Source: Providencia vermicola
GTDB taxonomy: Bacteria; Pseudomonadota; Gammaproteobacteria; Enterobacterales; Enterobacteriaceae
Direction of reading: 5' to 3'
Assembly (NCBI RefSeq): GCF_020381325.1
Contig: NZ_JAGSPI010000005.1
Location: 1-64,000 of the forward strand
Length of the DNA: 64,000 bases
This document shows, one piece after another, positions 20 to 31,977 of the stretch. The first letter of the stretch is position 1. Each line of letters begins with the position of its first letter. The translations under genes were made by a program, and so were the position numbers. The notes under the pieces were generated by a model that worked only from the letters and a program-made list of their open reading frames with translations, searched no databases and was not told where the DNA came from.

Positions 20-202
20 ATAAGAAATAATTGACCATTTAAAAACTAATGTTTTAAATTTTAAGAAAATCAACTTAAAAAAAGCTAAACAAATGTTTGT
101 TAATTAACCTGTATGTATAAGTACTTATTAACGCATTTAAAATATGTTGCTATATTTTAATGGAATTATAAAAATAACTTCAGGCTAATACTTGGAGAGA
201 TT

Positions 203-1060
203 ATGGAAAAAACCCGAACGACATTAGATCAATGGATTACTTTACAAGCTGTCGTTGATTATGGTGGCTTTGCTCAAGCAGCTGAAATTTTGCATAGAAC
301 ACAATCATCAATTAGTTATACGATTAGCAAATTAGAGCAAACATTGGAACTTGAGATATTTTCTTTAGAGAGACGCCGTGCAGTACTCACTAAACAGGGC
401 GAACAACTTTTAGCATTATCTAGGGAGGTTACAAATAAAGCAATTTCATTAGAGGAGTTGGCTAAGTCATTGAATTATGATGGTAATGGGAAAATTAACA
501 TTGTAATGGACTCTTTATATCAAAGTGATGAAATACTTGAAAAAATAGGACAATTCACACGTCTAAGAAAGGATTATGACATTGATTTTAAAAGAGTTTC
601 ATTAAATAGGGCTGATGTGCTATCACTGAAAAATTATGATTTGCTCATTACTCATCATAAAATTGAGTCTTTAAACCCAATTTATTTAGAGCAAGTTGAT
701 GCTATTTTAGTGACAAGCCCAGACCATAAATTACAATCATGTAATGAATCTAATGTACTGAATTTATTAGAAAAAACAACACATATTGTTCTGCTTCCTG
801 CTTTTGGTGAAGTTGAGAAAAGCATTCAGACAATTAATGTAGCTAACGTTGAGATAGCGGTAAAATTAACTGAAAATTCAGTTGGATACTCATGGTTGCC
901 TAAAAATCTAATACAGGATAAGCTGAATAATAATTCACTAAAAGAGCTGAGAATTGCAAATAAAAGCAATGAATATCGCTTTTATATGTATTTGAATAAA
1001 AATTCAATGGTGAGTGATATTTTAAAATATTACCTTATCGATAATGATAAAAATAAATAA
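203..1060 (+). CDS. LysR-family transcriptional regulator
   Basis: This 285-residue protein has an N-terminal winged helix-turn-helix at about residues 8-66 (WITLQAVVDYGGFAQAAEIL, then TQSSISYTISKLE). An effector-binding domain of the LysR type follows, and is poorly conserved to the eye. The ATG at 203 has a purine-rich GGAGAG ribosome site 4-9 bases upstream. The gene lies 188 bp upstream of a fimbrial operon on the same strand, so it probably regulates that operon, but no binding site could be assigned. The target is inferred from position only. The protein is not recognisable as a named E. coli regulator. Confidence 0.85.
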   Translation: MEKTRTTLDQWITLQAVVDYGGFAQAAEILHRTQSSISYTISKLEQTLELEIFSLERRRAVLTKQGEQLLALSREVTNKAISLEELAKSLNYDGNGKINIVMDSLYQSDEILEKIGQFTRLRKDYDIDFKRVSLNRADVLSLKNYDLLITHHKIESLNPIYLEQVDAILVTSPDHKLQSCNESNVLNLLEKTTHIVLLPAFGEVEKSIQTINVANVEIAVKLTENSVGYSWLPKNLIQDKLNNNSLKELRIANKSNEYRFYMYLNKNSMVSDILKYYLIDNDKNK

Positions 1061-1248
1061 ATACATCTTTTTTTGAATGATAAAAATAAACATAAAAATT
1101 TTAGATGTAATTTAAAAAAATTCAATGTATCAATTTGTTAACTTAACTAAAGGTAAATGGTATATTCCGTCCGCACTCCCAATATGAGTAATGTAATTAT
1201 TCATTAAGTAATAATTAATAATTAAAGATCTATATTATAGGAACTATT

Positions 1249-1770
1249 ATGAGTATTCTAAAAAAATCCCTAACAGTAATAGGGGTGGCTTTAGCTGTAA
1301 CATCTGCGTCAACCGTTTTAGCTTCAGGTACAATTAATTTTACTGGAGAAATAACAGATATCGCTTGTACAGTAGATAGCAACTCTAAAAATTTAAATGT
1401 TGACCTTGGGAAAGTTTCATCAAAAAGCTTAGCTGCACAAGGTGAAGTTGCTGGACTAAAGGATTTTACAATTAAGCTTGTTGATTGCCCAGCTAACTCT
1501 AAAGTGACAGTACGTTTTGGCGGCACACGTGATACGGCTGACCGTGACATTCTAGCGATCAACCAAGCTGCGGGCGTTGCTAAAAATGTGGGTATTGCCT
1601 TATTTGAAAAAGATGCAACTACACAAATTAAACTGTTTGAAGATTCAAAAGAAGTTGAATTTGATGGTGCAACAGTTGATTTAGACTATGTTGCTCGTTA
1701 TAAAGCAACAGGCGCTGCAACCGCAGGTCCTGCAAACAGCAGTGCAGTTTATAGTATTCAATACCATTAA
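1249..1770 (+). CDS. Fimbrial major subunit (type 1-like pilin)
   Basis: A 173-residue pilin of the chaperone/usher class. A Sec signal peptide ends near residue 25 (VLA, then SGTINFTG). The mature part has the usual pilin start, with C40 and C80 placed for the conserved disulfide, and ends in an aromatic beta-zipper (VYSIQYH). It should be the shaft subunit, secreted through the usher at 2497 with the chaperone at 1829. The ATG follows a TAGGAAC ribosome site. A hairpin directly downstream probably lowers expression of the later genes relative to this one. It is the first gene of a four-gene operon. Confidence 0.92.
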   Translation: MSILKKSLTVIGVALAVTSASTVLASGTINFTGEITDIACTVDSNSKNLNVDLGKVSSKSLAAQGEVAGLKDFTIKLVDCPANSKVTVRFGGTRDTADRDILAINQAAGVAKNVGIALFEKDATTQIKLFEDSKEVEFDGATVDLDYVARYKATGAATAGPANSSAVYSIQYH

Positions 1771-1777
1771 TACTATT

Positions 1778-1810
1778 AGAGGGTGGTATTCGCCACTCTC
1801 TATCTCTTTT
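1778..1810 (+). terminator. Hairpin between pilin and chaperone genes (partial terminator)
   Basis: Arms 1778-1786 and 1793-1801 pair over 9 bp with one G-T wobble and a 6-base loop, followed by a T-rich run to 1810. The position between major pilin and chaperone is typical of an attenuating terminator or 3' mRNA stabiliser in fimbrial operons. Confidence 0.6.
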
Positions 1811-1828
1811 TAAATCCAGGCTGTGTTT

Positions 1829-2500
1829 ATGAAAAGAATATTACTTTCAGTATTTTTATTTGCGTTCACTATGTCCAATTTTTCTTACGCAGCAGGTATT
1901 AGCGTTGGGGGAACACGATTTGTTTATGAAGAGAATAAACGTGAAATTGATATTCCAATTTATAATAGTGATAAAGAAAAACCATTTTTAATACAAAGTT
2001 GGGTATCACCCTATGAAGGTGAAGGAAAAACGCCATTTATAGCGACGCCACCTTTATTTAGGATTGAACCTGACACAAATGGTTCTGCACGTATTTCATA
2101 TATAGGTGAGCCAATAGGGGCTAATCAGGAAAAACTGTATTTATTGAATATCAAATCTATACCGCCAAAGGATAGTGGAATAGAAAACGAATTACAGATA
2201 ATTATCAACTCACAGTTTAAATTATTTTTGCGTTCAAAAGATATTGAGCCATTTGACTTCGAAAAGGTTTTTTTAGTAAAAAAAACAGATGGAATTATGA
2301 TTGATAATCAAACACCTTACCATTTGTCGATAAAAAATATATTAGTGAATGGCAATGTGGTGGCTGGCAAAAACCTAATTTACCCGTTTAAAAACGATTA
2401 TATTCTTAAGAAAAATACGAACAATGATAATTCTATAGTGGTGCAATTTATTAATGATTATGGCGCCATTATTGAGAAAAAAACAAGTAAGAGTATATGA
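1829..2500 (+). CDS. Periplasmic fimbrial chaperone (PapD/FimC family)
   Basis: An immunoglobulin-fold pilus chaperone of 223 residues. The signal peptide ends about residue 21 (NFSYA, then AGISVGGTRFVY). The G1-strand and domain-linking motifs of the family are visible (TRFVYEENKREIDIPIYN; LYLLNIKSIPPK). It caps pilins in the periplasm by donor-strand complementation and delivers them to the usher. A GTG lies in frame at 1823, but the ATG at 1829 is 8 bases after the CCAGG ribosome site and starts directly at the basic signal-peptide n-region, so I chose it. The stop overlaps the usher start by four bases, indicating translational coupling. Confidence 0.92.
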   Translation: MKRILLSVFLFAFTMSNFSYAAGISVGGTRFVYEENKREIDIPIYNSDKEKPFLIQSWVSPYEGEGKTPFIATPPLFRIEPDTNGSARISYIGEPIGANQEKLYLLNIKSIPPKDSGIENELQIIINSQFKLFLRSKDIEPFDFEKVFLVKKTDGIMIDNQTPYHLSIKNILVNGNVVAGKNLIYPFKNDYILKKNTNNDNSIVVQFINDYGAIIEKKTSKSI

Positions 2501-4989
2501 AAATGTCAGTTGTATGCGCGAAAAATAAGCTAGCCTATTCTAAAATATTTATACCTATCAGCATGGTGATTTATACAAATAGTGCTATTTCTGAAGATAT
2601 ATTTGATATTAATGCAATTAACACAGGCATTGAAAGCCAAGTGGCGGACGTTAATAGTTTAGGCTACCTTTCGCAAGTCGGTGGACAATTGCCAGGTACT
2701 TACTATGTCGATATTTATATAAACAATAATTTAGTTGTGAACAAGAGTATAACCTTTGTTTATGATGATAAAATAAAAAAACTGATCCCTGAAGTGACAA
2801 AAAAAATGTTATTAGAATGGGGGGTGAAAAATTCAGTAAGCCAAGAATTTTCAGATATGAGTGAAAACGAATATGTGAAAAATATTGAGACACTTATTCC
2901 GAGTGCGAAGCTGGGCTATCATTTTGAAGTTAATCAATTGCAATTAAGTATTCCTCAAATTGGGTTAGAGAATACGAGCCGCGGTTACGTTGAACCAAGC
3001 GAATGGGACGACGGAATTAATGCCGCGTTTGTTAATTATACAGCAAGATATAACAAGTATTGGTATAAAGACAGAGATAACAATAATAACTCATTTCTAG
3101 GTTTGAGAAGTGGCATTAATTTAAATGCATGGCGGCTAAGAAATCATAGTACATACAGTAAAACTATGGATGAAAGCCATTGGAATAACCTACAAACTTA
3201 TTTAGAACGGGATATTCGGACATTAAAAAGCCGTTTAACGATTGGCGAAACATCTTCTGATAATGGTGTAATGGAAAGCAACCCGTTTCGTGGGGTTAGG
3301 TTAGCGTCAGATGAGAGCATGTTACCACAAAGCCAGAGGGGCTTTGCGCCTGTTGTAACGGGAATTGCACAGACCAATGCCATTGTGACGGTAAGGCAAA
3401 ATGGTAATGTCATTTACCAGACGACGGTACCACCAGGTGAGTTTTCGATTAATGATCTTTACCCGACATCTTATAGTGGTGATTTAGACGTTACTATTGA
3501 AGAAACAAATGGTACGACACGTTCTTTTATTCAACCATTTTCAGCTGTACCAATGATGCAAAGGGCTGGAGCGCTTAAATACAGTCTCGATATCGGTAAA
3601 TATAATGTTGATAATGCGCGAAGAAAACCTAATTTTGCACAAGCTTCTGCAATTTATGGTTTACCTTATAACATGTCGATATATGGTGGTTTTTTAGTTT
3701 CCGCTGATTACCAAGCTTATACAATGGGAACTGGCGTCAATTTGGGGAATATTGGGGCGATATCAACGGATATTACGCAAGCCTCGACAACATTAATTGA
3801 TAAAACAAAAGCGGATGGGCAATCATATCGTGTTCAATATTCAAAATACCTGCCAGGTACAGGAACATCATTTTCGTTAGCTTCATATCGTTATTCAACC
3901 AAAAACTATTATGATTTTTCTTCATCAAATAATTATTTTTACGATATAGGCAGGAAAAAGCAACAATTCCAAGCGTCCATTTCACAGTCATTGGATGGGA
4001 TTGGCTATTTTTCCATTAATGGCTATCAACAGTATTACTGGGATAAGGGCGGTTCAGATAAAAATTTGACAATGAGTTTCAGCTCAAATTACAACGCGAT
4101 GAACTACAGTGTTGCTTATTCATATATGAAGCAAGACTACTCTAATACAAATGATCAAATGCTTTCGGTGAATTTGAGTATCCCATTTGATATTGGTCAG
4201 AAAAATAATTGGGTTAATTATAGTTATAATACTAGCCGCAAAGGGGATTCAACAAGTTCGCTTAGCTTTAATGGGACACGTTTAGAAGATAATAACCTTC
4301 AATACGACATTACTCAACGTTATAACCATAGCAGAAATGAATACAGTAATTCGGTCAGTGCTAACTATATTATTTCTGCAGGAGAATACAGTGCTGGATA
4401 TAACTATGATCCTAAATATAACTCTGTAGATTTAGGTGCAACGGGTGCGCTGTTACTGCATTCTGGCGGAATAACGGCATCCCGAACAATTTATGATTCA
4501 GCGGTATTAGTTAAAGCGGAAGATATCGATAATCTTAAAGTGAATAACGCCCAAGCTTTATATACGGATGCCTCGGGTTATGCGGTTATTCCAACCGTGA
4601 CACGCTATGAACGTAATAAGGTAAGTGTGGATACCGCCACATTGACAGGAAATAATGATGTTGCAATCAATACGACGACTGTTGTTCCGACACAAGGTGC
4701 AATTGTATTAGCGAATTTCCAAGCAAAGCGTGGGGCAAGAATTTTATTAAGGTTAATGAATAAAGGTAAGCCAATTGCTTTTGGTACTCAAGTATTTGTA
4801 TTTGAAAAAGATAACCAAGTGACTAGTGGTATTGTTGCCAATGATGGAGAAGTGTATTTAAGTGGTGTACCAGAGCAAAGTGTTATCAAAGTGAAGTGGG
4901 GTAATAACCAGACTCAGCAATGCACGGTGCCGCTTTTATTATCACTAGAGAGTGACAAAATTCAGTTTATAGAACGCGTGTGTGAATAG
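2497..4989 (+). CDS. Fimbrial outer-membrane usher (FimD/PapC family)
   Basis: An 830-residue usher, full length for the family. After the signal region (TNSAISEDIFDINAI) come the N-terminal chaperone-binding domain, the 24-strand barrel with the usher signature around residues 275-300 (RGFAPVVTGIAQTNAIVTVR), the plug domain and two C-terminal domains ending with a Cys pair. It forms the assembly pore in the outer membrane. The ATG at 2497 overlaps the chaperone stop (ATGA); a second ATG at 2503 is possible. The following adhesin gene starts 8 bases after its stop. Confidence 0.94.
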   Translation: MKMSVVCAKNKLAYSKIFIPISMVIYTNSAISEDIFDINAINTGIESQVADVNSLGYLSQVGGQLPGTYYVDIYINNNLVVNKSITFVYDDKIKKLIPEVTKKMLLEWGVKNSVSQEFSDMSENEYVKNIETLIPSAKLGYHFEVNQLQLSIPQIGLENTSRGYVEPSEWDDGINAAFVNYTARYNKYWYKDRDNNNNSFLGLRSGINLNAWRLRNHSTYSKTMDESHWNNLQTYLERDIRTLKSRLTIGETSSDNGVMESNPFRGVRLASDESMLPQSQRGFAPVVTGIAQTNAIVTVRQNGNVIYQTTVPPGEFSINDLYPTSYSGDLDVTIEETNGTTRSFIQPFSAVPMMQRAGALKYSLDIGKYNVDNARRKPNFAQASAIYGLPYNMSIYGGFLVSADYQAYTMGTGVNLGNIGAISTDITQASTTLIDKTKADGQSYRVQYSKYLPGTGTSFSLASYRYSTKNYYDFSSSNNYFYDIGRKKQQFQASISQSLDGIGYFSINGYQQYYWDKGGSDKNLTMSFSSNYNAMNYSVAYSYMKQDYSNTNDQMLSVNLSIPFDIGQKNNWVNYSYNTSRKGDSTSSLSFNGTRLEDNNLQYDITQRYNHSRNEYSNSVSANYIISAGEYSAGYNYDPKYNSVDLGATGALLLHSGGITASRTIYDSAVLVKAEDIDNLKVNNAQALYTDASGYAVIPTVTRYERNKVSVDTATLTGNNDVAINTTTVVPTQGAIVLANFQAKRGARILLRLMNKGKPIAFGTQVFVFEKDNQVTSGIVANDGEVYLSGVPEQSVIKVKWGNNQTQQCTVPLLLSLESDKIQFIERVCE

Positions 4990-4997
4990 GAGTTATC

Positions 4998-6017
4998 ATG
5001 AAAAAATTAGGTTTAATATTCTGTATTCCAACGCTTTTATATTCACAATTTGGTTTTGCAGAATATAGAGCTGAATTCACAACAAGAACAAAAGATGTTG
5101 CAAAAACACTTTATGTGCCTCGAACTTTACCTGTAGGCAGTTTTATTGATTCAGTTGATTTGGGCAGTTACACACCGTGGGTTTGGTGGAATGCAACAGG
5201 TCGAACAGAAGTGGGTATTTATCTCACAGGGCTTTCATCTCCATCAATGAAAATCCCTGGTGTTGGTTATGTAAGAGAAATCAACAGCTCAGGTGTAGGC
5301 TATGCGCTTCATGGCACGGTGACAAGCCCTTGTGCAGGAAATGCATATGTTGACGGCGTAAATACTAAAGATGGAAATATTAGCAATAGAATAATTTGTG
5401 GCGTTACTTCATCTTCAGCATCCTATTCCGTACAGTTAAGAGCCGATTTTTATAAAGTGGGGGAAAATGTTAAAACACAAACACTACCTAGCGTGACGGC
5501 TGCAATGCTTATTTTGTACAACAATGGTTTTATCACTTCTGATACATATGGGAAAACGGAACCTCGGGTCACAATGGGGCCTGTAAAAGTGGTTTCAAGC
5601 GGATGCGAAGTAAAAAATAAAAATATTGATGTTCCTTTTGGAAGTGTTAGCAAAGCAACTTTTTCAGGCGTGGGCTCAACGAGCCCAGAGAGTCAGAAAA
5701 ATCTTCAAATACAACTCGATTGTGACCCTGTTTCGGCAATTAGGGTAACGTTTATCGGAACACCAGATGCGAGCCAAACACCAGGGGCTATTGCATTGAA
5801 TGACTTAAGTGACATCAACACAGCGCAAGGTTACGCTATTCAAGTAAAATATAAAGGTGAGCCAATTAAGTTGAATCAGTTGATGACTTTAGTCGAAAAA
5901 AATAGCAGTGCAGGGTTATATAATATTCCTTTAGAAGCAGTCTATATACAAACACAATCTGCAACGAAAACGGGCAAAGCGAACGGCACATTACAGTTTA
6001 ATCTACAATATCACTAA
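4998..6017 (+). CDS. Two-domain fimbrial tip adhesin
   Basis: A 339-residue protein with a signal peptide (FGFA, then EYRAEFTT). An N-terminal receptor-binding domain of about 175 residues contains a Cys pair (near SPCAGNAY and RIICGV). A C-terminal pilin domain starts about residue 200 (SSGCEVKNKNIDVPFG) and ends LQFNLQYH, which fits donor-strand exchange at the tip. The size, two domains and last-gene position match tip adhesins such as F17G or FimH, but the lectin domain is not recognisable and the ligand is unknown. AGGAGT precedes the ATG. It ends the operon. Confidence 0.85.
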   Translation: MKKLGLIFCIPTLLYSQFGFAEYRAEFTTRTKDVAKTLYVPRTLPVGSFIDSVDLGSYTPWVWWNATGRTEVGIYLTGLSSPSMKIPGVGYVREINSSGVGYALHGTVTSPCAGNAYVDGVNTKDGNISNRIICGVTSSSASYSVQLRADFYKVGENVKTQTLPSVTAAMLILYNNGFITSDTYGKTEPRVTMGPVKVVSSGCEVKNKNIDVPFGSVSKATFSGVGSTSPESQKNLQIQLDCDPVSAIRVTFIGTPDASQTPGAIALNDLSDINTAQGYAIQVKYKGEPIKLNQLMTLVEKNSSAGLYNIPLEAVYIQTQSATKTGKANGTLQFNLQYH

Positions 6018-14025: not shown

Positions 14026-15528
14026 TTAATGCACTGATTTTCTTAATTGATTATCGAGTTGATAAACAGGTTGTAATGCAGTGTATAACGCATCAAAAAC
14101 ACGGTAAGTATCACTATATTCAGCATTGCTTTTCGGTAAATAGCGAGTTTTAATCTTCACACATTGTGAGATAGCGTCTTTGAAAGAGGCAAAATATCCC
14201 TCATCAACAGCAGCAATAATAGCGGCGCCTAAGCTTGATGCTTCCTCATTCTCAGGTATTTCAATCGGCTGATTGGCAAAATTAGATTTTAGCTGTGTCC
14301 AAAAGGCTGATTTTGCGCCACCACCGACAGAAACAATTTTTATCACTTCAACACCTGCATCTTGCATATGTTGTAAATTCTTCTTCAAAAGACATGCGAC
14401 GCCTTGCATCACCGATAAAGCAAAATCATATTTATCATGGTGTGCATTGACAGCAAAAAAAGCACCTGTGGCATGTTCATTAAAATCGGGTGCATTCACT
14501 CCAGTTAAATAAGGCAAAAATATGGGCGGCGGTAATTGACGATGCTTATTTTTAATTTGCTGAGTTATTTCATTAAAAGACAGAGTTTCGCAAAATTGAT
14601 TCTTAAACCACTCCAAACTATAACCACCGCTTTCACAAACAGGCAATAGCACATATGAATTAGGGAAAGGGCCACAATTGAGTGGGATTTTACTGCCATC
14701 AAAAATCGGTTGGTTAACCAGTGTTGCAATAGACAACACGGTGCCCGCCGATTCGCTAATAACGCCTTCTTGAATATTCCCCGTTCCTATCATCCCAGCG
14801 AAATGGTCTAAAGTACCGATATTAATTTTCGTTTCTTGGGTTAGCCCATAATCCTCGCAAACCCATTGTTCTATAAGGTTTCCTGCAATACTCCCAGAGG
14901 GGTGAACCTCAGGTAATTGGGATAATTTAACCCCGCAGTAGTCTAAAATATCAGTCCAATATTGTTTTTTGGTAATATCAAAGTAATGGGAAAAACTGTA
15001 AATAGAATAGTCGCCTAACATCCGACCGCTAAGCCTAAAAACAATATAATCTTTTAATAATAAATAATGCGCAGTACGAGAGAATATCTCGGGTTGGTGG
15101 CGCTTCAACCATAACATTTTGGTGATGGGCCATGTCGGAATAAGTTTGGGTTGACCTGTTGTGTGATAACACAGTGTTTCATCAAAAGCGTGAGACAATT
15201 CATCACATTCTTTTTTAGACCGCATATCCAACCATGAAATAGCAGGGTAACAAGGTTGTTGTGATTCAGCTAATAAAACCAAGGACTCTGCTTGCCCCGT
15301 TAGGACAATCTGCACAACATTATGTTGGTTGTGATTTTTGCCTAATAGGGCAGATTGCTTAACCATGGATTGAATACGGTTAAAATAGTCATTTGGGTCA
15401 AATTCAACCCTATCATCTGTTTGCTGGTAGGTAACTGTTTCAGATAATAACGATAATAACGTTAATTTTGAATCATAGATGGAGACTTTAATATTGGTAG
15501 TTCCCAGGTCAATGGCAATAATGTTCAT
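14026..15528 (-). CDS. FGGY-family carbohydrate kinase (xylulokinase/ribulokinase-like)
   Basis: A 500-residue sugar kinase with the two-lobed actin-like ATPase fold. The N-terminal phosphate-binding MNIIAIDLGTTNIKVSIYD and the second-lobe motifs GTLDHFAGMIGTG and KIVSVGGGAKSAFW are clear. FGGY kinases phosphorylate ketoses or polyols. Here the neighbours (polyol-type transporter, SDR dehydrogenase, epimerase, triosephosphate-isomerase homologue) suggest a ketose made from a polyol, or the polyol itself. The substrate cannot be named. AGGA stands 8 bases before the ATG. The gene is 13 bp after the LacI regulator gene on the same strand, so the two are probably co-transcribed. Confidence 0.88.
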   Translation of the reverse strand: MNIIAIDLGTTNIKVSIYDSKLTLLSLLSETVTYQQTDDRVEFDPNDYFNRIQSMVKQSALLGKNHNQHNVVQIVLTGQAESLVLLAESQQPCYPAISWLDMRSKKECDELSHAFDETLCYHTTGQPKLIPTWPITKMLWLKRHQPEIFSRTAHYLLLKDYIVFRLSGRMLGDYSIYSFSHYFDITKKQYWTDILDYCGVKLSQLPEVHPSGSIAGNLIEQWVCEDYGLTQETKINIGTLDHFAGMIGTGNIQEGVISESAGTVLSIATLVNQPIFDGSKIPLNCGPFPNSYVLLPVCESGGYSLEWFKNQFCETLSFNEITQQIKNKHRQLPPPIFLPYLTGVNAPDFNEHATGAFFAVNAHHDKYDFALSVMQGVACLLKKNLQHMQDAGVEVIKIVSVGGGAKSAFWTQLKSNFANQPIEIPENEEASSLGAAIIAAVDEGYFASFKDAISQCVKIKTRYLPKSNAEYSDTYRVFDALYTALQPVYQLDNQLRKSVH

Positions 15529-15541
15529 GGAGTGATCCTCG

Positions 15542-16582
15542 TTATTTTTGTAATAGATTTTTTACTGAACCACGGTTAATTAGCGTTGGTTCAGACGAGA
15601 AAAAGCAGGTTTCAGATCGACCTTTTAATAAACACGCACGTAAAATACTAATATGGCTTTCCGCTATTTTTTCTTTCGGTAGTTGTATCGTTGTTAGTGG
15701 AGGCGTGGAAAAAATAGATAATGGATTGTTATCGAAGCCAATAACACTGATATCTTCAGGAATTGAAAACTGATACTGCATTGCGGCCTTATACACCCCG
15801 TATGCCAGATTATCGTCAAATGTCATTACGGCAGTTAAAGGTAGGTTGAATGCATGCTTTTTCGTATCCCAGAGGGATTGAATGACCTGAAAACCATTCA
15901 TTATTGAGGAGCTGGCAATTTTTACGCGTTCATCATCAAACGGTACTCCATATTCAGCAAAGGCTTTTTTGATTCCTAATACATAGTTACGGCTGGTTGG
16001 AAAATTCAGTGTTTCTGTGATCACTAAACAATCTTTATGGCCCTGACTCAATAAATGAGAGGCTGCTAAATAACCACCTTGTTCATAATCAACATGAACA
16101 TGGTGGCTGCTAATATTGTCATAGTGGGCACCTTGCACAATTAATTTATTTGAGAATTCAGATAAAAGCTGCAAATTAGCAGGGTTCATTGACGTTGGTT
16201 CAAGAATAATAAAGTCAGGTAAACGAGATAACACTGCTTGGATATTAGCTCGTTCAATTTTTTCACTAAATTGTGAGTCAAAAATCATGGTGGTATAGCC
16301 ATGCTTTGCCATCGTAATGGCAATATCACGAAAAATGTAGGTTAAAACTGGATTTTCAATATCATTAAAAATAATGGCAATTGTTTTTGTTGAATCACCA
16401 CGTAAACCTTTCGCCAATGAATTTGGGGTATACCCCATTTCATTGGCTTTATGCAGCACAAGCTTACGCGTTTCTTCTTTAATCGCAGGGTTATGATTGA
16501 GCGCTTTTGAGACAGTTGAAAATGAAATATTCAGCTCTTTGGCTATCGATTTTATCGTAACAGGTTTATTGGTTGATGCCAT
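15542..16582 (-). CDS. LacI-family transcriptional repressor of the sugar locus
   Basis: A 346-residue regulator. The LacI helix-turn-helix is at residues 8-30 (IKSIAKELNISFSTVSKALN), followed by a periplasmic-binding-protein-like effector domain (VIGFDNNPLSIFSTPPLTTI is typical). The ATG at 16582 has AGG 8 bases upstream; an in-frame TTG at 16606 is less likely. It is divergent from the catabolic operon. Three copies of ATTACAACGTTGTAAT-type palindromes lie in the shared intergenic region, the size and symmetry expected for LacI-family operators. It very likely represses both directions and is relieved by a sugar or sugar phosphate. Confidence 0.92.
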   Translation of the reverse strand: MASTNKPVTIKSIAKELNISFSTVSKALNHNPAIKEETRKLVLHKANEMGYTPNSLAKGLRGDSTKTIAIIFNDIENPVLTYIFRDIAITMAKHGYTTMIFDSQFSEKIERANIQAVLSRLPDFIILEPTSMNPANLQLLSEFSNKLIVQGAHYDNISSHHVHVDYEQGGYLAASHLLSQGHKDCLVITETLNFPTSRNYVLGIKKAFAEYGVPFDDERVKIASSSIMNGFQVIQSLWDTKKHAFNLPLTAVMTFDDNLAYGVYKAAMQYQFSIPEDISVIGFDNNPLSIFSTPPLTTIQLPKEKIAESHISILRACLLKGRSETCFFSSEPTLINRGSVKNLLQK

Positions 16583-16647
16583 CGTATCGGCCTTATTCGA
16601 ATTCAAAATTATAGATAAAATGGTTAACTAACTTCAGAGTAAATAAC

Positions 16648-16665
16648 AATTACAACGTTGTCAAT
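16648..16665. promoter_or_regulatory. LacI-type operator, imperfect copy O3
   Basis: AATTACAACGTTGTCAAT shares the core ATTACAACGTTGT with the two perfect sites downstream. It lies 66 bp upstream of the LacI-family gene, so it probably serves autoregulation. Confidence 0.75.
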
Positions 16666-16952: not shown

Positions 16953-16970
16953 AATTACAACGTTGTAATT
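16953..16970. promoter_or_regulatory. LacI-type operator, perfect palindrome O1
   Basis: AATTACAACGTTGTAATT is an 18-bp perfect palindrome with the central CG typical of LacI-family operators. Its centre is 119 bp from that of O2, a distance compatible with DNA looping. Confidence 0.85.
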
Positions 16971-17071: not shown

Positions 17072-17089
17072 AATTACAACGTTGTAATT
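17072..17089. promoter_or_regulatory. LacI-type operator, perfect palindrome O2
   Basis: A second exact copy of the 18-bp palindrome, 47 bp upstream of the first gene of the catabolic operon. It probably overlaps the promoter or the start of its transcript. The rest of 16583-17136 is AT-rich with no ORF. Confidence 0.85.
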
Positions 17090-17136
17090 CTAGCGAAGGT
17101 AACAAGAGAAATATCACAATTAAAAATGAGGTCATG

Positions 17137-17940
17137 ATGAAAATAGCAGCCGCCAACCTAATGGTGTCAGGGAAAACAATAACAGAAAAAGCACAACAAC
17201 TTGAAAAATGGGGATTTGATGGGATTGCGTTATTTATAAAGTATAGCGAATGGACGGATGAACTTTATCAAGAAGTCCTTGATTTAGAAAAAAACACAGG
17301 AGTCAAACCGTGTGAATTTGCTTTTAGTGATGATTTATATGGTCATTTGATGAGTGATGATTTGGTATTGCGAGAAAAAAGCCGCGCAATGTATAAGCTT
17401 GCTGCGAAAATTGCGGGTGAACTAGGTGCCGTTACTGAACTTGAATTTGCTTACGGCGTTCAAGACCCACTGCCATTGTTTAATCCCTATCAGTCAATGA
17501 ATGCCGAGCTGCATGCAGGCTTTTTAGACATGTATCGTGAGTTGACCGCACCATTGGCTGGGACGCAGGGTTATATGTTATTGGAGGGCATTAATCGTTA
17601 TGAAAGCCCTTATTTAAATAGTATCAAACAATGTAAAGACATTATTGATGAGCTTGCTTTAGCGAACACAGGTGTACTTGCCGATTTTTTCCATATGTCT
17701 ATCGAAGAAAGCAATATCACAGATAGCATTCGCTATGCAGGAAAAGATATTCGACATGTGCACTTAGGGGACAACAACCGCTTATTACCAGGGTATGGCT
17801 CAATTGATTGGATGGCAGGGTTTAATGTATTGAGAGAAGTTGGGTTTGATGGGTTTGTTTGTCTTGAATGTAGCACTTGTGGCATTTCAGCAAAAACGCT
17901 GCCCGAAACAGCAAAATTCTTAAAAAAATTAATTGGGTAG
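17137..17940 (+). CDS. Sugar phosphate isomerase/epimerase (xylose isomerase-like TIM barrel)
   Basis: A 267-residue protein of the AP-endonuclease-2/xylose-isomerase-like TIM-barrel family. Residues placed for a divalent metal site are visible in YMLLEGINR (Glu), GVLADFFHM (Asp, His), IRHVHLGDNNR (His) and GFVCLECSTC (Glu). Family members epimerise or isomerise ketoses and their phosphates; Brucella EryC is one example. Two ATGs are adjacent (17134 and 17137); the second has better spacing from the GAGG site. It is the first gene of a five-gene operon under the two perfect operators. The substrate is unknown. Confidence 0.85.
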   Translation: MKIAAANLMVSGKTITEKAQQLEKWGFDGIALFIKYSEWTDELYQEVLDLEKNTGVKPCEFAFSDDLYGHLMSDDLVLREKSRAMYKLAAKIAGELGAVTELEFAYGVQDPLPLFNPYQSMNAELHAGFLDMYRELTAPLAGTQGYMLLEGINRYESPYLNSIKQCKDIIDELALANTGVLADFFHMSIEESNITDSIRYAGKDIRHVHLGDNNRLLPGYGSIDWMAGFNVLREVGFDGFVCLECSTCGISAKTLPETAKFLKKLIG

Positions 17941-17946
17941 GGCTGC

Positions 17947-18666
17947 ATGAAGACAATGCTAAACCTGAATACGCCTTTTTTTGAGATTGGCCCTAAAACC
18001 TACCTTTATGGTGAAGCAGCACTTGAGCTGGCACAAGCAGCAGACAGCTTATGTGAAAAATATAGTGTAGATATTATCTTTACTGCGCAATACACAGATA
18101 TTGAAAATATTGCGAAAAACACACGATTTATCAAAGTATTTGCACAGCACATGGACTGTAACGAGCCTGGCCGGGGAGTTGGAGCAGTATTACCCGAAGC
18201 GATTAAACAGGCTGGAGCTGTTGGGGTACTACTTAATCATGCAGAAAAACCGCTATCCCTCGATGTGCTAGCAAAAACAATTGTACGAGCAAAGCTGGTT
18301 GGCTTAGCAACGCTAGTCTGTGCGGGAAGTTGCGAAGAGGCGATGATGATCGCGCATTTAACCCCCAACATTATCTTAGCGGAATCACCCGCGTTGATAG
18401 GTAAAGGTATTCGAACTGAGCAAGATATGGCGGAAATTCAGAGAATTAACCAATCCATTCATGCTATTAACCCAACTATTTTAGTCTTGCATGGCGCGGG
18501 GATCAGTAATGAAAAAGATGTGTACGCAATCATTCAAGCAGGTGCAGATGCAACAGGTTCAACAAGCGGGATTATAAAAGCGGATGATCCCATTCTGATG
18601 CTGGAAAAAATGATAGCTGCGGTGAATGACGCGTGGCAGTTAAGAAATCAAGCGAATGGAGAATAA
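17947..18666 (+). CDS. Triosephosphate isomerase-family protein
   Basis: A 239-residue member of the triosephosphate isomerase fold, closer in length to short or archaeal-type TIMs than to the 255-residue glycolytic TpiA. Catalytic elements are recognisable: His in KVFAQHMDC, the catalytic-Glu region in NIILAESPALIGKG, and the phosphate-binding GADATGSTSGIIKA near the end. A second TIM in a sugar operon suggests a substrate other than glyceraldehyde-3-phosphate. In Brucella the TIM homologue EryH acts on tetrulose phosphates, so a tetrose role is a fair guess. It starts 6 bases after the preceding gene. Confidence 0.82.
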   Translation: MKTMLNLNTPFFEIGPKTYLYGEAALELAQAADSLCEKYSVDIIFTAQYTDIENIAKNTRFIKVFAQHMDCNEPGRGVGAVLPEAIKQAGAVGVLLNHAEKPLSLDVLAKTIVRAKLVGLATLVCAGSCEEAMMIAHLTPNIILAESPALIGKGIRTEQDMAEIQRINQSIHAINPTILVLHGAGISNEKDVYAIIQAGADATGSTSGIIKADDPILMLEKMIAAVNDAWQLRNQANGE

Positions 18667-18668
18667 GT

Positions 18669-19166
18669 ATGGCTGTTTTTCATAAAATAATTCCAATTGA
18701 AACAACACGAAGAGTCAGTTTTGACGACATTACGGAGAGTGTTCAAAAGTTGGTCAAAGAATCGGGTATTCAAAATGGTATGGTCAATGTCTTCTCTCAA
18801 CATACCAGTTGTAGTGTATTTATTCAGGAAGACTCTGAGGATACAACTTATTGGAATACCCCATTGATTCTACAGGATATGTTGAATGTTTTCGAAAAAG
18901 TGATCCCAACTTGCCAATATGAAACCCAGTATCTGCATCCAGGGCCTATTCATATGGAAAATGCGCAGAAGTTGCGTGATGAAAAACCTGAATGGTTGCT
19001 AAACACGGATGGGCACCTGCGCTCCGTGCTACTAGGGCGTTCGGAAACAATTCCATTGCTGGATGGGGCGATGACACTTGGGGAGTTTGGTCGGATTTAC
19101 TTTTCAGATATGGATCAAACTCGTGAGCGTAGTCGTATTGTACGAGTGCAGATTATTGGCGAATAA
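18669..19166 (+). CDS. YjbQ/UPF0047-family protein
   Basis: A 165-residue protein of the YjbQ family (Pfam UPF0047), about 25 residues longer than E. coli YjbQ. The family signature is visible: VNVFSQHTSCSVFIQEDSED near residue 45, a His-rich YLHPGPIH, and the C-terminal SRIVRVQIIGE. E. coli YjbQ has weak thiamine-phosphate-synthase activity, but its true role is unsettled. The ATG at 18669 is 2 bases after the previous stop with a GGAG site, so it is tightly coupled to the isomerase gene. A function in this sugar pathway is inferred from the operon only. Confidence 0.85.
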   Translation: MAVFHKIIPIETTRRVSFDDITESVQKLVKESGIQNGMVNVFSQHTSCSVFIQEDSEDTTYWNTPLILQDMLNVFEKVIPTCQYETQYLHPGPIHMENAQKLRDEKPEWLLNTDGHLRSVLLGRSETIPLLDGAMTLGEFGRIYFSDMDQTRERSRIVRVQIIGE

Positions 19167-19199: not shown

Positions 19200-19976
19200 A
19201 TGGGTATTTTAGAGAAAATGCGTTTAGATGGCAAAAAAATTTTTGTTACTGGAGGCGCTCGCGGCATAGGCAAGCGCTTGGCGATTGCGTTATCTGAGGC
19301 GGGAGCTGATGTGGCTATCGTTGATGTTGATTTAGCGGAAGCACAAAAAACGGCATTAGAAATTGCAAAAGCCAATAATAATAAAACTATCGCGATTCGC
19401 ACTGATATTACTCAGCCTGCTGACGTCAATGAAATGATTGAAACTATTTTACGTGAATTTGGCCGTATTGATGTGGCTTTTTGTAATGCAGGTATTGGTC
19501 ACACCGTCCCTGTTGAAGAAGATACACTTGAGGATTGGCATCGTGTGATTAATGTGAATTTAAATGGGACATTTTTAACTGCACAAGCGGCGGCAAAAGT
19601 GATGTTAAAACAAGGTGGTGGTTCCATTATTAATACTGCGTCTATGTCAGCACACATTACCAATATTCCGCAAAAAGAATGCTCTTATGCCGCATCTAAG
19701 GCGGGTGTCATTGCGATGTCGCGCAATATGGCGGTTGAATGGGCAGATAGAAATGTTCGAGTGAATACCATTAGTCCAGGTTATATGGCAACCGAAATGA
19801 CATTAAATGATCCCAATTTAGCACCATTAATTAAAGAATGGGAACAGCTTATCCCTGTACATCGTATGGGTAAACCTGAAGAGTTAGAAGCACTTGCAGT
19901 GTATTTGGCGGGGGATATGAGCTCCTATACCACAGGTGCAGATTTCCGTGTCGATGGGGCATATACCTGCTTCTAA
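19200..19976 (+). CDS. SDR-family oxidoreductase, probable polyol/sugar dehydrogenase
   Basis: A classical short-chain dehydrogenase of 258 residues. It has the cofactor motif TGGARGIG at about residues 18-25, NAG near residue 97, catalytic Ser in NTASMSAHI and Tyr-Lys in YAASK, and ends DFRVDGAYTCF. An Asp in VDVDLA after the second strand suggests NAD rather than NADP. In an operon with an RbtT-type polyol transporter and FGGY kinase, oxidation of a polyol to a ketose, as for ribitol dehydrogenase RbtD, is the likely role. AAGAAGGAA precedes the ATG. Confidence 0.87.
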   Translation: MGILEKMRLDGKKIFVTGGARGIGKRLAIALSEAGADVAIVDVDLAEAQKTALEIAKANNNKTIAIRTDITQPADVNEMIETILREFGRIDVAFCNAGIGHTVPVEEDTLEDWHRVINVNLNGTFLTAQAAAKVMLKQGGGSIINTASMSAHITNIPQKECSYAASKAGVIAMSRNMAVEWADRNVRVNTISPGYMATEMTLNDPNLAPLIKEWEQLIPVHRMGKPEELEALAVYLAGDMSSYTTGADFRVDGAYTCF

Positions 19977-20150
19977 GATAAACACTTATCAATATTAATA
20001 TTCCAATAAAAAACATAATCTAATGGGGTTATATCGGGATGCTTTTGCCTAAAACCCCATGAATAGACAATTTTATTGTTAATTGAGCCTTTAATCCGAA
20101 CATGAAGTACAAACCAAAATATTTAAAAGAATAATTCAATGAGGTTTGAA

Positions 20151-21425
20151 ATGAATCAGAATAATAAGCACAACGTTCTCGACAAAATAGGCATTCCCAG
20201 CTCACTCTCATGGGGGTATTTAGGTGTATTAATCTTTATGATTGGTAATGGAGTCGAAATTGGCTGGTTAAGCCCTTATTTAATTGATAACGGCTTGACA
20301 ATTCAGCAAGTCTCTACGCTGTTTGCCATCTATGGTGTGACCGTTGCATTGTCATCGTGGTTTGCGGGGGTATTTTTCGAAACCTTCGGTGCAAAACGCA
20401 CCATGTTTATTGGCACATTGGCTTGTCTCGTGGGTATTACAGGCTTTATTGCCCTTGGCCTAAAAGAAATGTCATATTCTATCTTATTGTTAATGCAGGC
20501 AATTAAAGGGTTTGGCTATCCGTTATTTGCTTATGCATTTTCGGTGTGGATAGCATATCGCAGCCCAAGAAATAAACTCAGTACTGCCTATGGTTGGTTC
20601 TATTTTATGTTTTCCGGCGGCATGCAGGTATTAGCGACATTCTATGCAACATGGGCAGTAACAGAATTAGGAAATATTAATACGCTTTGGACAACGTTGG
20701 CCTTTATTATTGTCGGTGCATTCTTTGCGTTAAGTTTAAATAAAGATGACATTAAACCCGAAAGCCAAAGAACAACATCGGAAAAAGTCCAAGAAGTATT
20801 AAAAGGGTTAACCATCGTTAAGCAACATCCTAAATTGTTTATCGCCTGTATATTGCGAATCATAAACTCATTATCACAATACGCATTCCCTGTTTATCTA
20901 CCGATTTATATGATTGAGCAAGGCTTCACCACAACGGAATGGTTGAGTATTTGGGGCGCTGCATTTACCAGTAACATTATTTTTAACCTTGTTTGGGGGA
21001 TCACAGGTGATAAGTTCGGACATAAAAGAACCATCATCTGGTGTGGTGGTGTATTAACAGGAGTGAGTATGCTGCTTCTATTCTATGCACCGCAATTTGT
21101 TGGCGCAAACTACGTGGTTGTTCTTATGTTATCGATGGTTTGGGGAGCAGGGGTTGCGGGTTATATTCCATTAGATGCTATGTCAGCTAATATGGTGGAA
21201 AAAGATAAAGGCGCAATCATGTCCGTATTGAATTTAGGTACAGGGCTTTCTGTGGTTATAGGGCCTGCAATAGTTGGTTTATTTATTCACCTAATCGGGC
21301 CAAGCGGCGTGACTTGGTTGGTGGCAGGTTTGTATTTTGTTGGGGCGTTAATTACCAATTTCCTTGATGAGCCTGTTAAAAAACATGTTCAAGTGATAGA
21401 TAATAAAAAATTAATTAACGAATAA
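20151..21425 (+). CDS. MFS polyol transporter (RbtT/DalT-like)
   Basis: A 424-residue, 12-helix major-facilitator permease. It strongly resembles the Klebsiella ribitol and D-arabitol transporters RbtT/DalT: NVLDKIGIPSSLSWGYLGVL, FFETFGAKRTMF, IKGFGYPLFAYAFSVW and AIMSVLNLGTGLSVVIGPA. The ATG at 20151 has GAGG 6 bases before it; an ATG at 20139 overlaps that site and is rejected. A hairpin with ATGGGGTT / AACCCCAT arms (20023-20060) sits in the 174-bp gap after the SDR gene and may tune its expression. It should import the polyol metabolised by this locus. Confidence 0.9.
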   Translation: MNQNNKHNVLDKIGIPSSLSWGYLGVLIFMIGNGVEIGWLSPYLIDNGLTIQQVSTLFAIYGVTVALSSWFAGVFFETFGAKRTMFIGTLACLVGITGFIALGLKEMSYSILLLMQAIKGFGYPLFAYAFSVWIAYRSPRNKLSTAYGWFYFMFSGGMQVLATFYATWAVTELGNINTLWTTLAFIIVGAFFALSLNKDDIKPESQRTTSEKVQEVLKGLTIVKQHPKLFIACILRIINSLSQYAFPVYLPIYMIEQGFTTTEWLSIWGAAFTSNIIFNLVWGITGDKFGHKRTIIWCGGVLTGVSMLLLFYAPQFVGANYVVVLMLSMVWGAGVAGYIPLDAMSANMVEKDKGAIMSVLNLGTGLSVVIGPAIVGLFIHLIGPSGVTWLVAGLYFVGALITNFLDEPVKKHVQVIDNKKLINE

Positions 21426-29910: not shown

Positions 29911-30094
29911 ATTTTTTATTCTTATTTGTTTTCAATTGATTATTGATTGGCTTCTTTAAATTATTATAAAGGAAATAATAAAAGACATATTTGTATTTTG
30001 ATATGGCATAAATATACTCAATTAGCTTTAATAAAAAGGCTAACAGAAGTTAGTCTGAAATAATATTAATCTGAGTATAGAAAAGGACGTGTAT

Positions 30095-30835
30095 ATGAAG
30101 AAAGTATCAACCGTAATATCAGTTGTTTCATTTATATTTTTACCTGTAATGGGAATGGCAGGCGTTTTATCTCAACAAAGCCAAAATTATAACCAAGGCG
30201 AGACAGACATCGACGTTGGTAAAACACAGTATGAAGGCGGTGGTGGGGCAAATGAGGGTAACCCTGGCTTAGGTTATCGTTTCGTGACAGAAGGCATCAC
30301 AATTTCATTGTCAGGGCTAAAGGATAAAGCCTCTAAAGTAGCTAATGGCGTTTATGTCATAGATAAAGTCGAAGGTCATCACGGTAGTATAGGTAAGTTT
30401 AGCTTTTCACAAGTTGCTGATGCAGAAATCTATTATGGAGATTGGTCTCAAACAGGGGATGTTACTGATCCCAAACACACCGCGTTTTATTCGGGGAAAG
30501 AGCCAACAAATGAAATCCCAACAGAAGGCCAAGCCAGTTATACCATTATGGGTCTGAACCAATATGAAAGCGGTGGGAAAATGCCTGGAGTTTACCTTGT
30601 TGACTTTGGTAAGAAACTTTATGAGGGCTCATTAGATGGGGAGTTCGCTAAAATTGAACTTCATGGTGAAATTGGTGAGAACGGGAAATTTTCAGGTGCT
30701 GCACTTGTCAATGACGAAGCCGAAGGGATAAGCACTGGGCAGTTATTTGGGCAAGATGCAGCACTGGTCGCAGGCATGGTTAGTTTCCCAGAAAATCACC
30801 AGTACGATACAGCATTTGGTGGTGTTAAAAATTAA
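30095..30835 (+). CDS. Slam-dependent secreted hemophilin/HphA-like protein, cargo 1
   Basis: A 246-residue exported protein. The signal peptide ends about residue 22 (MGMA, then GVLSQQ) with no lipobox Cys, so the product is soluble. The N-terminal half has GHHGSIGKF (His95-His96) and YYGDWSQTG, a pattern of the heme-binding hemophilin group. The C-terminal half is a TbpB-type beta-barrel ending GQLFGQDAALVAG, the known Slam recognition domain. It shares an identical 17-residue block (residues 105-121) with the next gene. The ATG at 30095 follows AAAGGA; a GTG at 30089 is in frame. It has its own terminator. Heme binding is inferred. Confidence 0.82.
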   Translation: MKKVSTVISVVSFIFLPVMGMAGVLSQQSQNYNQGETDIDVGKTQYEGGGGANEGNPGLGYRFVTEGITISLSGLKDKASKVANGVYVIDKVEGHHGSIGKFSFSQVADAEIYYGDWSQTGDVTDPKHTAFYSGKEPTNEIPTEGQASYTIMGLNQYESGGKMPGVYLVDFGKKLYEGSLDGEFAKIELHGEIGENGKFSGAALVNDEAEGISTGQLFGQDAALVAGMVSFPENHQYDTAFGGVKN

Positions 30836-31218: not shown

Positions 31219-31977
31219 ATGAAAAAATTAACGTTTGTTGTTTTAATGGCGTCATTATCAGGGGCTTCTACCAATGTATTTGCAGAGGCTACATCACAGC
31301 AAAGCCAAAGTTATACCGAGGGTGAAAAGATTGTCGATATTCGTATCGATAAGACTGAGGCAATGGGGGGGCCTCATGGTGGTGTTGCTGGTGCACCGGG
31401 TATCGGTTATCGCGGTACGCATAATGGTAAAACAATTGCATTTTCAGGGTTAAAGAATTTGGTCACACAGAAGCCCGATAATGTATATCTGCTAGAAAGT
31501 GGTGGAAGCCCACACGGCGGTATGGGGAAATTCCAATTTAGTCAAGTTGCGGATGCCGAAATCTATTATGGGGACTGGTCGCAAACTGGGGTAAATGGCG
31601 ATAGTACGCATACCGCTTATTTTTCAGGTAACAATGCTAGTACCGAGGTTCCCACTGATGGAAGCGCCGTATATAACATCGAGGGGGTTAACCAATTTGA
31701 TGGTGAAAGTAAGCTAACGGGTACCTTTAATGTCGACTTTGGTCAGAAGTCGTATGAGGGGTTACTGGAGGGGAATGAATTAAAGCAATCCATGGCGGGG
31801 GACATTCTTGAAGATGGTAAATTTAAGGGAATAGCCGAAGCCGTTTCCCATGATTCTATTTCAGGGAAAAGCATGGGGCAATTCTTTGGGGATAATGCGG
31901 AGCATGTCGCGGGTATCACCAAATATGAGGGGCACCACGAGCTAGACACCGCATTTGGTGGCAAAAAAGCTGACTAA
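31219..31977 (+). CDS. Slam-dependent secreted hemophilin/HphA-like protein, cargo 2
   Basis: A 252-residue paralogue of cargo 1. The signal peptide ends near residue 22 (TNVFA, then EATSQQ) with no lipobox Cys. It has His residues in Gly-rich loops (GGPHGGVAG near residue 53; GSPHGGMGKF near residue 99), the same 17-residue block ending YYGDWSQTG, and a C-terminal barrel with GQFFGDNAEHVAG, the TbpB-like motif recognised by Slam. Both proteins end with the motif DTAFGG. The different His loops suggest altered ligand or heme geometry. AAGGAAAG precedes the ATG. It is followed by a strong terminator before the Slam gene. Confidence 0.83.
   Translation: MKKLTFVVLMASLSGASTNVFAEATSQQSQSYTEGEKIVDIRIDKTEAMGGPHGGVAGAPGIGYRGTHNGKTIAFSGLKNLVTQKPDNVYLLESGGSPHGGMGKFQFSQVADAEIYYGDWSQTGVNGDSTHTAYFSGNNASTEVPTDGSAVYNIEGVNQFDGESKLTGTFNVDFGQKSYEGLLEGNELKQSMAGDILEDGKFKGIAEAVSHDSISGKSMGQFFGDNAEHVAGITKYEGHHELDTAFGGKKAD

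Follow-up and report, generated by a model that had tools for sequence, protein, structure and literature searches.

The long-form YjbQ/UPF0047 protein encoded in the window (the whole 64,000-nucleotide stretch of DNA analyzed here) belongs to a subfamily that forms a near-obligate pair with an archaeal-type triose-phosphate isomerase (TPI) in Clostridia and on bacterial plasmids. YjbQ/UPF0047 is a known family without an agreed function, and the pairing makes that function testable without yet answering the question. Our proposal, tentative and somewhat short of probable, is drawn from gene context: long YjbQ would be a dedicated sugar-phosphate isomerase acting on the product of the adjacent TPI and, if the sugar has four carbons, would convert erythrulose-4-phosphate to erythrose-4-phosphate as a stand-in for EryI. 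A first-pass annotation of the same DNA had suggested an action on a reactive sugar-phosphate intermediate, and the gene context would indeed place YjbQ on a compound of this kind.

The gene lies in a set (Table 1) that looks like a compact and inducible catabolic sugar locus, a LacI-type operon in which the kinase and regulator genes run leftwards and those for the barrel, TPI, YjbQ, the short-chain dehydrogenase (SDR) and the MFS transporter run rightwards. The YjbQ gene has an ATG start and a TAA stop; it begins 2 bp after the TPI gene and ends 33 bp before the SDR gene, exactly the spacings given in the first-pass annotation. With a second possible start, an in-frame GTG at 18633, the gene would run into that of TPI, and the ATG at 18669 is aligned with the starts of relatives. 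The transporter gene likewise has a possible alternative in-frame start, at 20139, and known members of its family presumably carry polyols. The kinase falls under every listed equivalog cut-off (296.7 bits against TIGR01312, cut-off 380.25), and the models nearest to the barrel are IolO (109 bits, cut-off 300) and psicose 3-epimerase; PDB comparisons of the barrel, the SDR and the kinase named no substrate. The GC content per kb is 0.31-0.42 in the operon, only slightly below the 0.38-0.46 of its flanks, and scans for promoters and terminators gave signals at the level of shuffled sequence.

Table 1. Genes and operator-like sites of the sugar locus, in window coordinates.
Feature	Position	Strand	Matches and remarks
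FGGY-family sugar kinase	14026..15528	-	PF00370/PF02782; xylulokinase-like, under every listed equivalog cut-off
LacI-family regulator	15542..16606	-	PF00356 + Peripla_BP_3
Operator-like palindrome, copy 1	16648..16665	.	2 mismatches
Operator-like palindrome AATTACAACGTTGTAATT, copy 2	16953..16970	.	perfect
Operator-like palindrome, copy 3	17072..17089	.	perfect
Sugar-phosphate isomerase/epimerase-type TIM barrel	17134..17940	+	PF01261, 97.5 bits (AP_endonuc_2; xylose-isomerase superfamily)
Archaeal-type triose-phosphate isomerase (TPI) paralogue	17947..18666	+	PRK04302, 180.5 bits, cut-off 132
Long-form YjbQ/UPF0047 protein, 165 aa	18669..19166	+	PF01894, TIGR00149
Short-chain dehydrogenase (SDR)	19200..19976	+	PF13561, 222.1 bits
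RbtT/DalT/CsbX-family MFS transporter	20151..21425	+	TIGR00897, 493 bits, cut-off 375

Three copies of the palindrome AATTACAACGTTGTAATT lie between the LacI and barrel genes, against 0.14 expected in the window, and across the 4.24-Mb genome, matches to its 14-base core with one mismatch or none are confined to these three places. When eight upstream regions were aligned, a similar site, mismatched in some of them, was seen before the barrel gene in Paenibacillus, Clostridiales/Lachnospiraceae, Pluralibacter and Xenorhabdus, and 15 of the 16 operator-like sites in six other genomes are at the homologous locus. A reversed control pattern gave 4 sites vs 3 real ones in the window's genome and 7 vs 16 in the six others, so that the signal consists mainly of where the sites are located. 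The LacI regulator would be expected to bind these sites and, as they occur at this locus only, the dedicated steps of the pathway should be encoded here.

The assignment of the gene to the YjbQ family, already made in the first-pass annotation, is borne out by matches above the cut-offs of both PF01894 (UPF0047; 102.4 bits, cut-off 27, model positions 1-115 of 117) and TIGR00149 (YjbQ; 100.5 bits, cut-off 67.75, model positions 3-132 of 132). Taking E. coli YjbQ to be 138 aa long, the protein is 27 residues longer, close to the earlier estimate of about 25, and the extra length consists of two inserts (approximately residues 57-63 and 93-109) that are absent from the 13 short YjbQ sequences aligned. 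Eight residues (H45, T46, E54, D70, H116, S125, G138 and R156) are each conserved in more than 90% of the rows in both groups, 58 long and 13 short; H45 and H116 are found in 71/71 and E54 in 70/71, rows shorter than 150 aa and a broken Xenorhabdus copy having been left out of this alignment beforehand. In a tree of 89 rows, one branch with an SH-aLRT of 100 splits 76 long from 13 short sequences, and the window protein falls within a clade of 11 (SH-aLRT 100). The tree was built by a quick method with SH-aLRT support only, and because its groups were labelled from the gene contents that they then describe, all it can show is that gene context goes along with ancestry. The long form thus shares with the YjbQ/UPF0047 family both model matches and the eight conserved residues, but differs in its two inserts, its separate clade, its steady TPI partner and its place in an apparently inducible catabolic operon. 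A second, short YjbQ is encoded elsewhere in the window's genome (G000:C8:79627-79971); this separate copy, together with the long/short split in the tree, rules out that the operon gene is a displaced housekeeping YjbQ.

Of 14 bacterial and archaeal control genomes, 10 encode YjbQ/UPF0047 proteins, and the nine distinct sequences of the family in the PDB are titled hypothetical, uncharacterised or by code. An AlphaFold model of long YjbQ, computed from a ten-row alignment, has a mean pLDDT of 53.5 and values below 50 across residues 45-123. Weak thiamin phosphate synthase activity is ascribed to the family by a title cited within PMC4731195.

The pairing with TPI was followed in 391 genomes sampled evenly across the Clostridia, with thresholds of E<=1e-20 for YjbQ and E<=1e-30 for TPI. 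Long YjbQ was found in 47 genomes, TPI in 48 and both in 47, a single genome (G382) having TPI alone; the hypergeometric value for this co-occurrence, which ignores shared ancestry, is 3e-60. The linkage is physical as well: 44 of the 69 places with long YjbQ are at most 150 bp from TPI and 15 more are at most 5 kb away (59/69 within 5 kb), while 10 are not within 5 kb. Conversely, 50 of 58 TPI matches, a few of which are fragments, lie within 5 kb of a long YjbQ. A pair within 5 kb is missing from 3 of the 47 genomes, a count limited by draft contigs. Among 72,556 plasmid records, 16 encode TPI (E<=1e-10), 12 of them bacterial and 4 archaeal, and YjbQ is directly downstream of TPI in all 12 bacterial copies, as judged by annotation, coordinates or HMM; beside the one haloarchaeal plasmid copy inspected of the four there was no YjbQ. 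A mere chance neighbour is ruled out by the linkage in Clostridia, the 12/12 plasmids and the 75-locus survey described below.

The first-pass annotation had named freely varying neighbours as the outcome that would speak against a tie to the pathway. The long subfamily does not behave in this way, and among the short YjbQ listed in TPI-bearing Clostridia genomes, 0 of 18 lie within 5 kb of TPI; genomic context is accordingly a route to function for the long subfamily, as had been anticipated. Since the linkage is confined to this subfamily, nothing as yet carries over to E. coli YjbQ except the shared candidate active-site residues. Short YjbQ too can occur in what look like catabolic clusters: on Enterococcus faecium DO plasmid 2 (L033, 5986-6411), a short-type gene directly follows an amidohydrolase gene and precedes genes for an amino acid permease and a fructoselysine kinase.

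The TPI of the window matches the archaeal-type enzymes of PRK04302 significantly and keeps their Lys/His/Glu, but unlike them it is encoded among sugar kinases, epimerases and aldolases. It also differs from canonical glycolytic TPI, scoring 86 bits against TIGR00419, under the cut-off of 130.6. Its solved relatives are four TPI sequences (PDB 1hg3, 2h6r and 1w0m among them), which we take to be archaeal enzymes, and 15 aligned bacterial relatives are 41-69% identical to it. K17, H98 and E146 are invariant in the 16 aligned rows. With the catalytic roles of Lys, His and Glu assigned, on our assumption, from TIM, their retention leads us to expect an enzyme that shifts a carbonyl between neighbouring carbons beside the phosphorylated end.

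Outside Clostridia, the long form was found in 0 of 23 other genomes of the window's genus, nine of which have a weak YjbQ match (E 2.6e-7 or higher; short type where aligned), in 11 of 365 genomes of the window's order, the window's own included, and in 4 of 398 Bacilli genomes, one of them the Paenibacillus that was part of the query set. When 84,980 species, each represented by a single genome, were scanned with peptide patterns from the window YjbQ, 11 loci were returned. One of them (L026) had a match of 31 residues only and was dropped; the other ten, from Paenibacillus, Clostridiales/Lachnospiraceae, Pluralibacter and Xenorhabdus, code for long YjbQ with identities of 69-83%. TPI and the barrel accompany long YjbQ in 10/10 of these loci, the kinase in 9/10 and the SDR in 8/10. 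At the DNA level, the operon gave no plasmid match by megablast and was not found in E. coli genomes by blastn, and protein-level relatives do occur on plasmids: the YjbQ gene is present in five Shinella plasmid records, with the same gene set in both of the two inspected. On those two (L027 and L028, approximately positions 80-5400), a dihydroxyacetone-kinase-type gene and a sugar ABC transporter adjoin the YjbQ operon on the opposite strand; kinases of this type also serve for erythrulose. A match to YjbQ, at 29.8%, was obtained from one phage record as well.

Within the operon, YjbQ is among the best conserved proteins. With the window as reference and the broken Xenorhabdus copy left out, mean identities across the 11 relatives are 82.6% for the SDR (9 loci), 75.8% for the MFS transporter (3), 73.2% for YjbQ (11) and 67.2% for the LacI regulator (7 of the 11, 62-75%), followed by TPI (63.7%), the barrel (58.8%) and the kinase (57.0%, range 47-66%), each in all 11. 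YjbQ ranks second after the SDR in 8 of 9 SDR-bearing loci and first in the two loci without an SDR, which, with the Clostridia and plasmid counts, sustains the original view of a gene tightly bound to its pathway. The broken copy lies on a Xenorhabdus yunnanensis contig (L025, 9347-10494), where frame changes disrupt the TPI gene as well as that of YjbQ, the kinase was not found in the stretch, and LacI, SDR and MFS retain long matches; TPI and YjbQ seem to be decaying together there, or the assembly is poor at this point. Downstream of the operon in Paenibacillus tianmuensis (L016, 12961-13366) is a partial second SDR with its own operator-like site, probably a duplication remnant.

The genes around long YjbQ were surveyed at 75 loci after manual removal of overlapping stretches; some genomes contribute two different stretches, and several stretches are cut off by the end of a contig. 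From each neighbour family, one or two members were compared with Pfam/NCBIfam, and the others were labelled by HMMs made from the clusters found here. TPI is present at 58 loci, a SIS gene at 37, one or the other at 69 and a kinase or PTS at 50; Rpe occurs at 14, the barrel and a class II aldolase at 12 each and TalC/FSA at 9, and 6 of the 75 have neither TPI nor SIS in the stretch seen. Around YjbQ, the epimerase-type gene can be the barrel, Rpe or absent, the activating step a kinase or a PTS, and transporter and regulator also change between loci; YjbQ stays. Besides the gene set of the window, three settings were seen. The first combines a PTS or an FGGY kinase (where seen) with a class II aldolase, TPI and YjbQ, sometimes with Rpe. 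The second, a cassette of PTS, YjbQ, Rpe and a SIS isomerase with no TPI within the stretch seen, was found in the one E. faecium plasmid record of this type that was inspected and in nine genomes, all from a single genus within the window's order, eight of the nine having the PTS genes. The third, in Clostridia, has an arabinose-isomerase-like or weakly fucose-isomerase-like enzyme, an FGGY kinase, TPI, SIS, one or two YjbQ and sometimes a TalC/FSA-type gene; its first enzymes suggest aldoses, possibly pentoses, as substrates. The Clostridia SIS protein scanned resembles arabinose-5-phosphate isomerase (127 bits, below cut-offs), and the one from E. faecium passes the cut-off of HxlB, a 3-keto to 2-keto isomerase (208.4 bits vs 160).

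The closest known system is the erythritol pathway of Brucella and Rhizobium. In Brucella, according to PMC5992420 and PMC11508834, the racemase EryC is followed by EryH, acting on 3-tetrulose-4-phosphate, and by the RpiB-type EryI, which yields erythrose-4-phosphate; the former source, citing Barbier et al., also gives the product of L-erythrulose phosphorylation by a kinase as D-3-tetrulose-4-phosphate, which makes a ketose-first route sensible. Both systems gather a kinase, a dehydrogenase, a barrel of the xylose-isomerase superfamily and a TPI homologue in one locus, and the route encoded in the window could likewise lead into the pentose phosphate pathway. The window, however, has an SDR and an FGGY kinase instead of EryB and EryA, and it has an archaeal-type TPI, no RpiB, and YjbQ where EryI would be expected. 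The counterpart of EryC is a PF01261 barrel, a match that does not establish whether it is closer to EryC than to tagatose 3-epimerases, and the counterpart of EryH is the TPI homologue with its three catalytic residues; as RpiB is missing, we do not file the locus as a member of the EryC/EryH/EryI pathway. By analogy, it may nevertheless work like that tetrulose pathway.

RpiB was detected at 0 of the 75 loci with an HMM that was derived from a pair of sequences from a single genome and had no further validation. With PF02502, RpiB-type genes were found in 12 of 13 genomes or records searched, on a different contig from the operon in six of the seven genomes with a known operon contig and 540 kb away in the seventh; on both Shinella plasmids they are more than 260 kb from the operon. 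The window's genome has two RpiB-type genes elsewhere. It also has a cluster of DeoR, PTS-IIB, PTS-IIC, Rpe, SDR and SIS isomerase genes (L118, G000:C4, approximately 80000-88000), flanked by RpiB, a second PTS and a SorC regulator, which resembles the PTS, YjbQ, Rpe and SIS cassette but includes an SDR and lacks YjbQ.

In the pathway that we envisage, a polyol would enter through the MFS transporter and be oxidized to a ketose by the SDR, and the FGGY kinase would form the ketose-1-phosphate. The barrel would then epimerize the carbon beside the carbonyl, TPI would shift the carbonyl by one position, away from the phosphorylated end, and YjbQ would shift it once more to give a central metabolite; in the four-carbon case, YjbQ would take the role of EryI and turn erythrulose-4-phosphate into erythrose-4-phosphate. 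How the steps follow one another, their chemistry and the use of a four-carbon substrate are all predicted from the gene set. YjbQ is proposed for the isomerization after the TPI step because it stands where RpiB is expected and RpiB was detected at no locus. The near-obligate pairing with TPI, the exchange of other partners for functional analogues while YjbQ stays, and the residues from H45 to R156 shared by long and short YjbQ are further points in favor of an isomerase. The class II aldolases of the first setting could use erythrose-4-phosphate, though these enzymes also work in other pathways; the one gene of TalC type that was scanned scores above the cut-off of a fructose-6-phosphate aldolase model (215.6 over 214) and is therefore not evidence for erythrose-4-phosphate use. 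Against an isomerase, the last step could fall to housekeeping RpiA/RpiB, and the ten Clostridia YjbQ without TPI within 5 kb and the six surveyed loci with neither TPI nor SIS also count against the proposal. Replacement of EryI is further questioned by Clostridia loci, which often carry, together with TPI and YjbQ, an SIS gene that a simple replacement does not need, and whose first enzymes point to aldoses.

The variety of partners would also suit a different activity, in which long YjbQ, as an anomerase or mutarotase (or a converter of hydrate and open-chain forms), feeds TPI, SIS or the aldolase a sugar phosphate in its reactive form, much as N-acetylneuraminate aldolase is served by YhcH. 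Such a form-converter would fit beside enzymes as different as TPI, SIS/HxlB, class II FBA and Rpe, and the shared His and Glu residues suit acid-base catalysis. However, tetrulose phosphates form no ring anomers, so that a C5 or C6 substrate would be required, and a general helper would not call for so close a link with a single TPI subfamily; we consider this activity unlikely. An isomerase of pentose rather than tetrose phosphates is similarly doubtful. Here, TPI and YjbQ (or SIS) would walk the carbonyl of a pentulose-1-phosphate through a 3-keto pentulose to ribulose- or xylulose-5-phosphate. The transporter belongs to a family of ribitol and arabitol transporters, genes for Rpe and for arabinose-isomerase-like, weakly fucose-isomerase-like and arabinose-5-phosphate-isomerase-like enzymes lie near YjbQ in other genomes, and the HxlB match of the E. 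faecium SIS is of the kind required. No single reaction fits, however, as YjbQ would have to perform the shift of TPI in the PTS, YjbQ, Rpe and SIS cassette and the next shift where it stands beside TPI.

Observations on E. coli YjbQ bear on the proposed isomerase and on a further reading. According to the review PMC7954711, a bypass of pdxB is obtained with overexpressed yjbQ, as it is with six other genes; the review suggests an entry upstream of SerC and PdxJ and describes the reactions as unidentified. To judge from the structures, erythrulose-4-phosphate oxidized at C1 would be the SerC substrate, which lends the proposed isomerase thin support, given the six other rescuing genes. Such odd rescue effects of overexpression, on pdxB (PMC7954711) and on thiamin phosphate synthase (by a title cited in PMC4731195), could equally come from a damage-control enzyme that clears a by-product of TPI-type enediol chemistry, for example a dicarbonyl or a dephosphorylated product, and a tight bond to one enzyme suits the repair of a side product. 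This is an improbable role all the same, given the absence of TPI beside the PTS, YjbQ, Rpe and SIS cassettes and a conservation within the operon that, as a general expectation, is too strong for a repair gene. Very improbable, finally, is a non-catalytic partner that alters the specificity of TPI in a complex: the near-obligate adjacency, often with a few bases between the genes, would suit it, but there are cassettes with YjbQ and no TPI in view, catalytic-looking residues are kept, and two different YjbQ surround one TPI in some Clostridia.

The proposed isomerase can be taken further, to a new structural type of sugar-phosphate isomerase that converts erythrulose-4-phosphate to erythrose-4-phosphate as an unrelated replacement of EryI/RpiB, is usually paired with archaeal-type TPI, and moves as an exchangeable module through pathways with a PTS, a kinase or an aldolase in two or more phyla, with the same chemistry in short YjbQ. 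Taken as a whole, this extension seems to us rather unlikely; if it were true, a function would be found for the short housekeeping form in bacteria and archaea. Should YjbQ be the isomerase after TPI, the annotation 'secondary thiamine-phosphate synthase' would be misleading for the long subfamily, and a set of enterobacterial, rhizobial and Clostridia sugar pathways would become nameable. In the open-licence literature, neither a YjbQ function in sugar pathways (titles and starts of abstracts) nor a long YjbQ subfamily tied to archaeal-type TPI was found. With a subfamily that keeps to a single partner, in small pathways with few unknown steps, an open question is reduced to a short list of enzyme assays.

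Two minor observations were made alongside. Ten Clostridia loci (L080, L084, L086, L088, L089, L100, L101, L103, L106 and L107) encode a second long-YjbQ paralogue of approximately 206 aa with a conserved C-terminal tail; it is found near the SIS gene and the 164-aa form by TPI, and at some loci the two forms flank TPI. Elsewhere in the window, 30089-30835 and 31219-31977 encode tandem paralogous secreted-looking proteins, which we guess may be haem-binding and of the hemophilin type.
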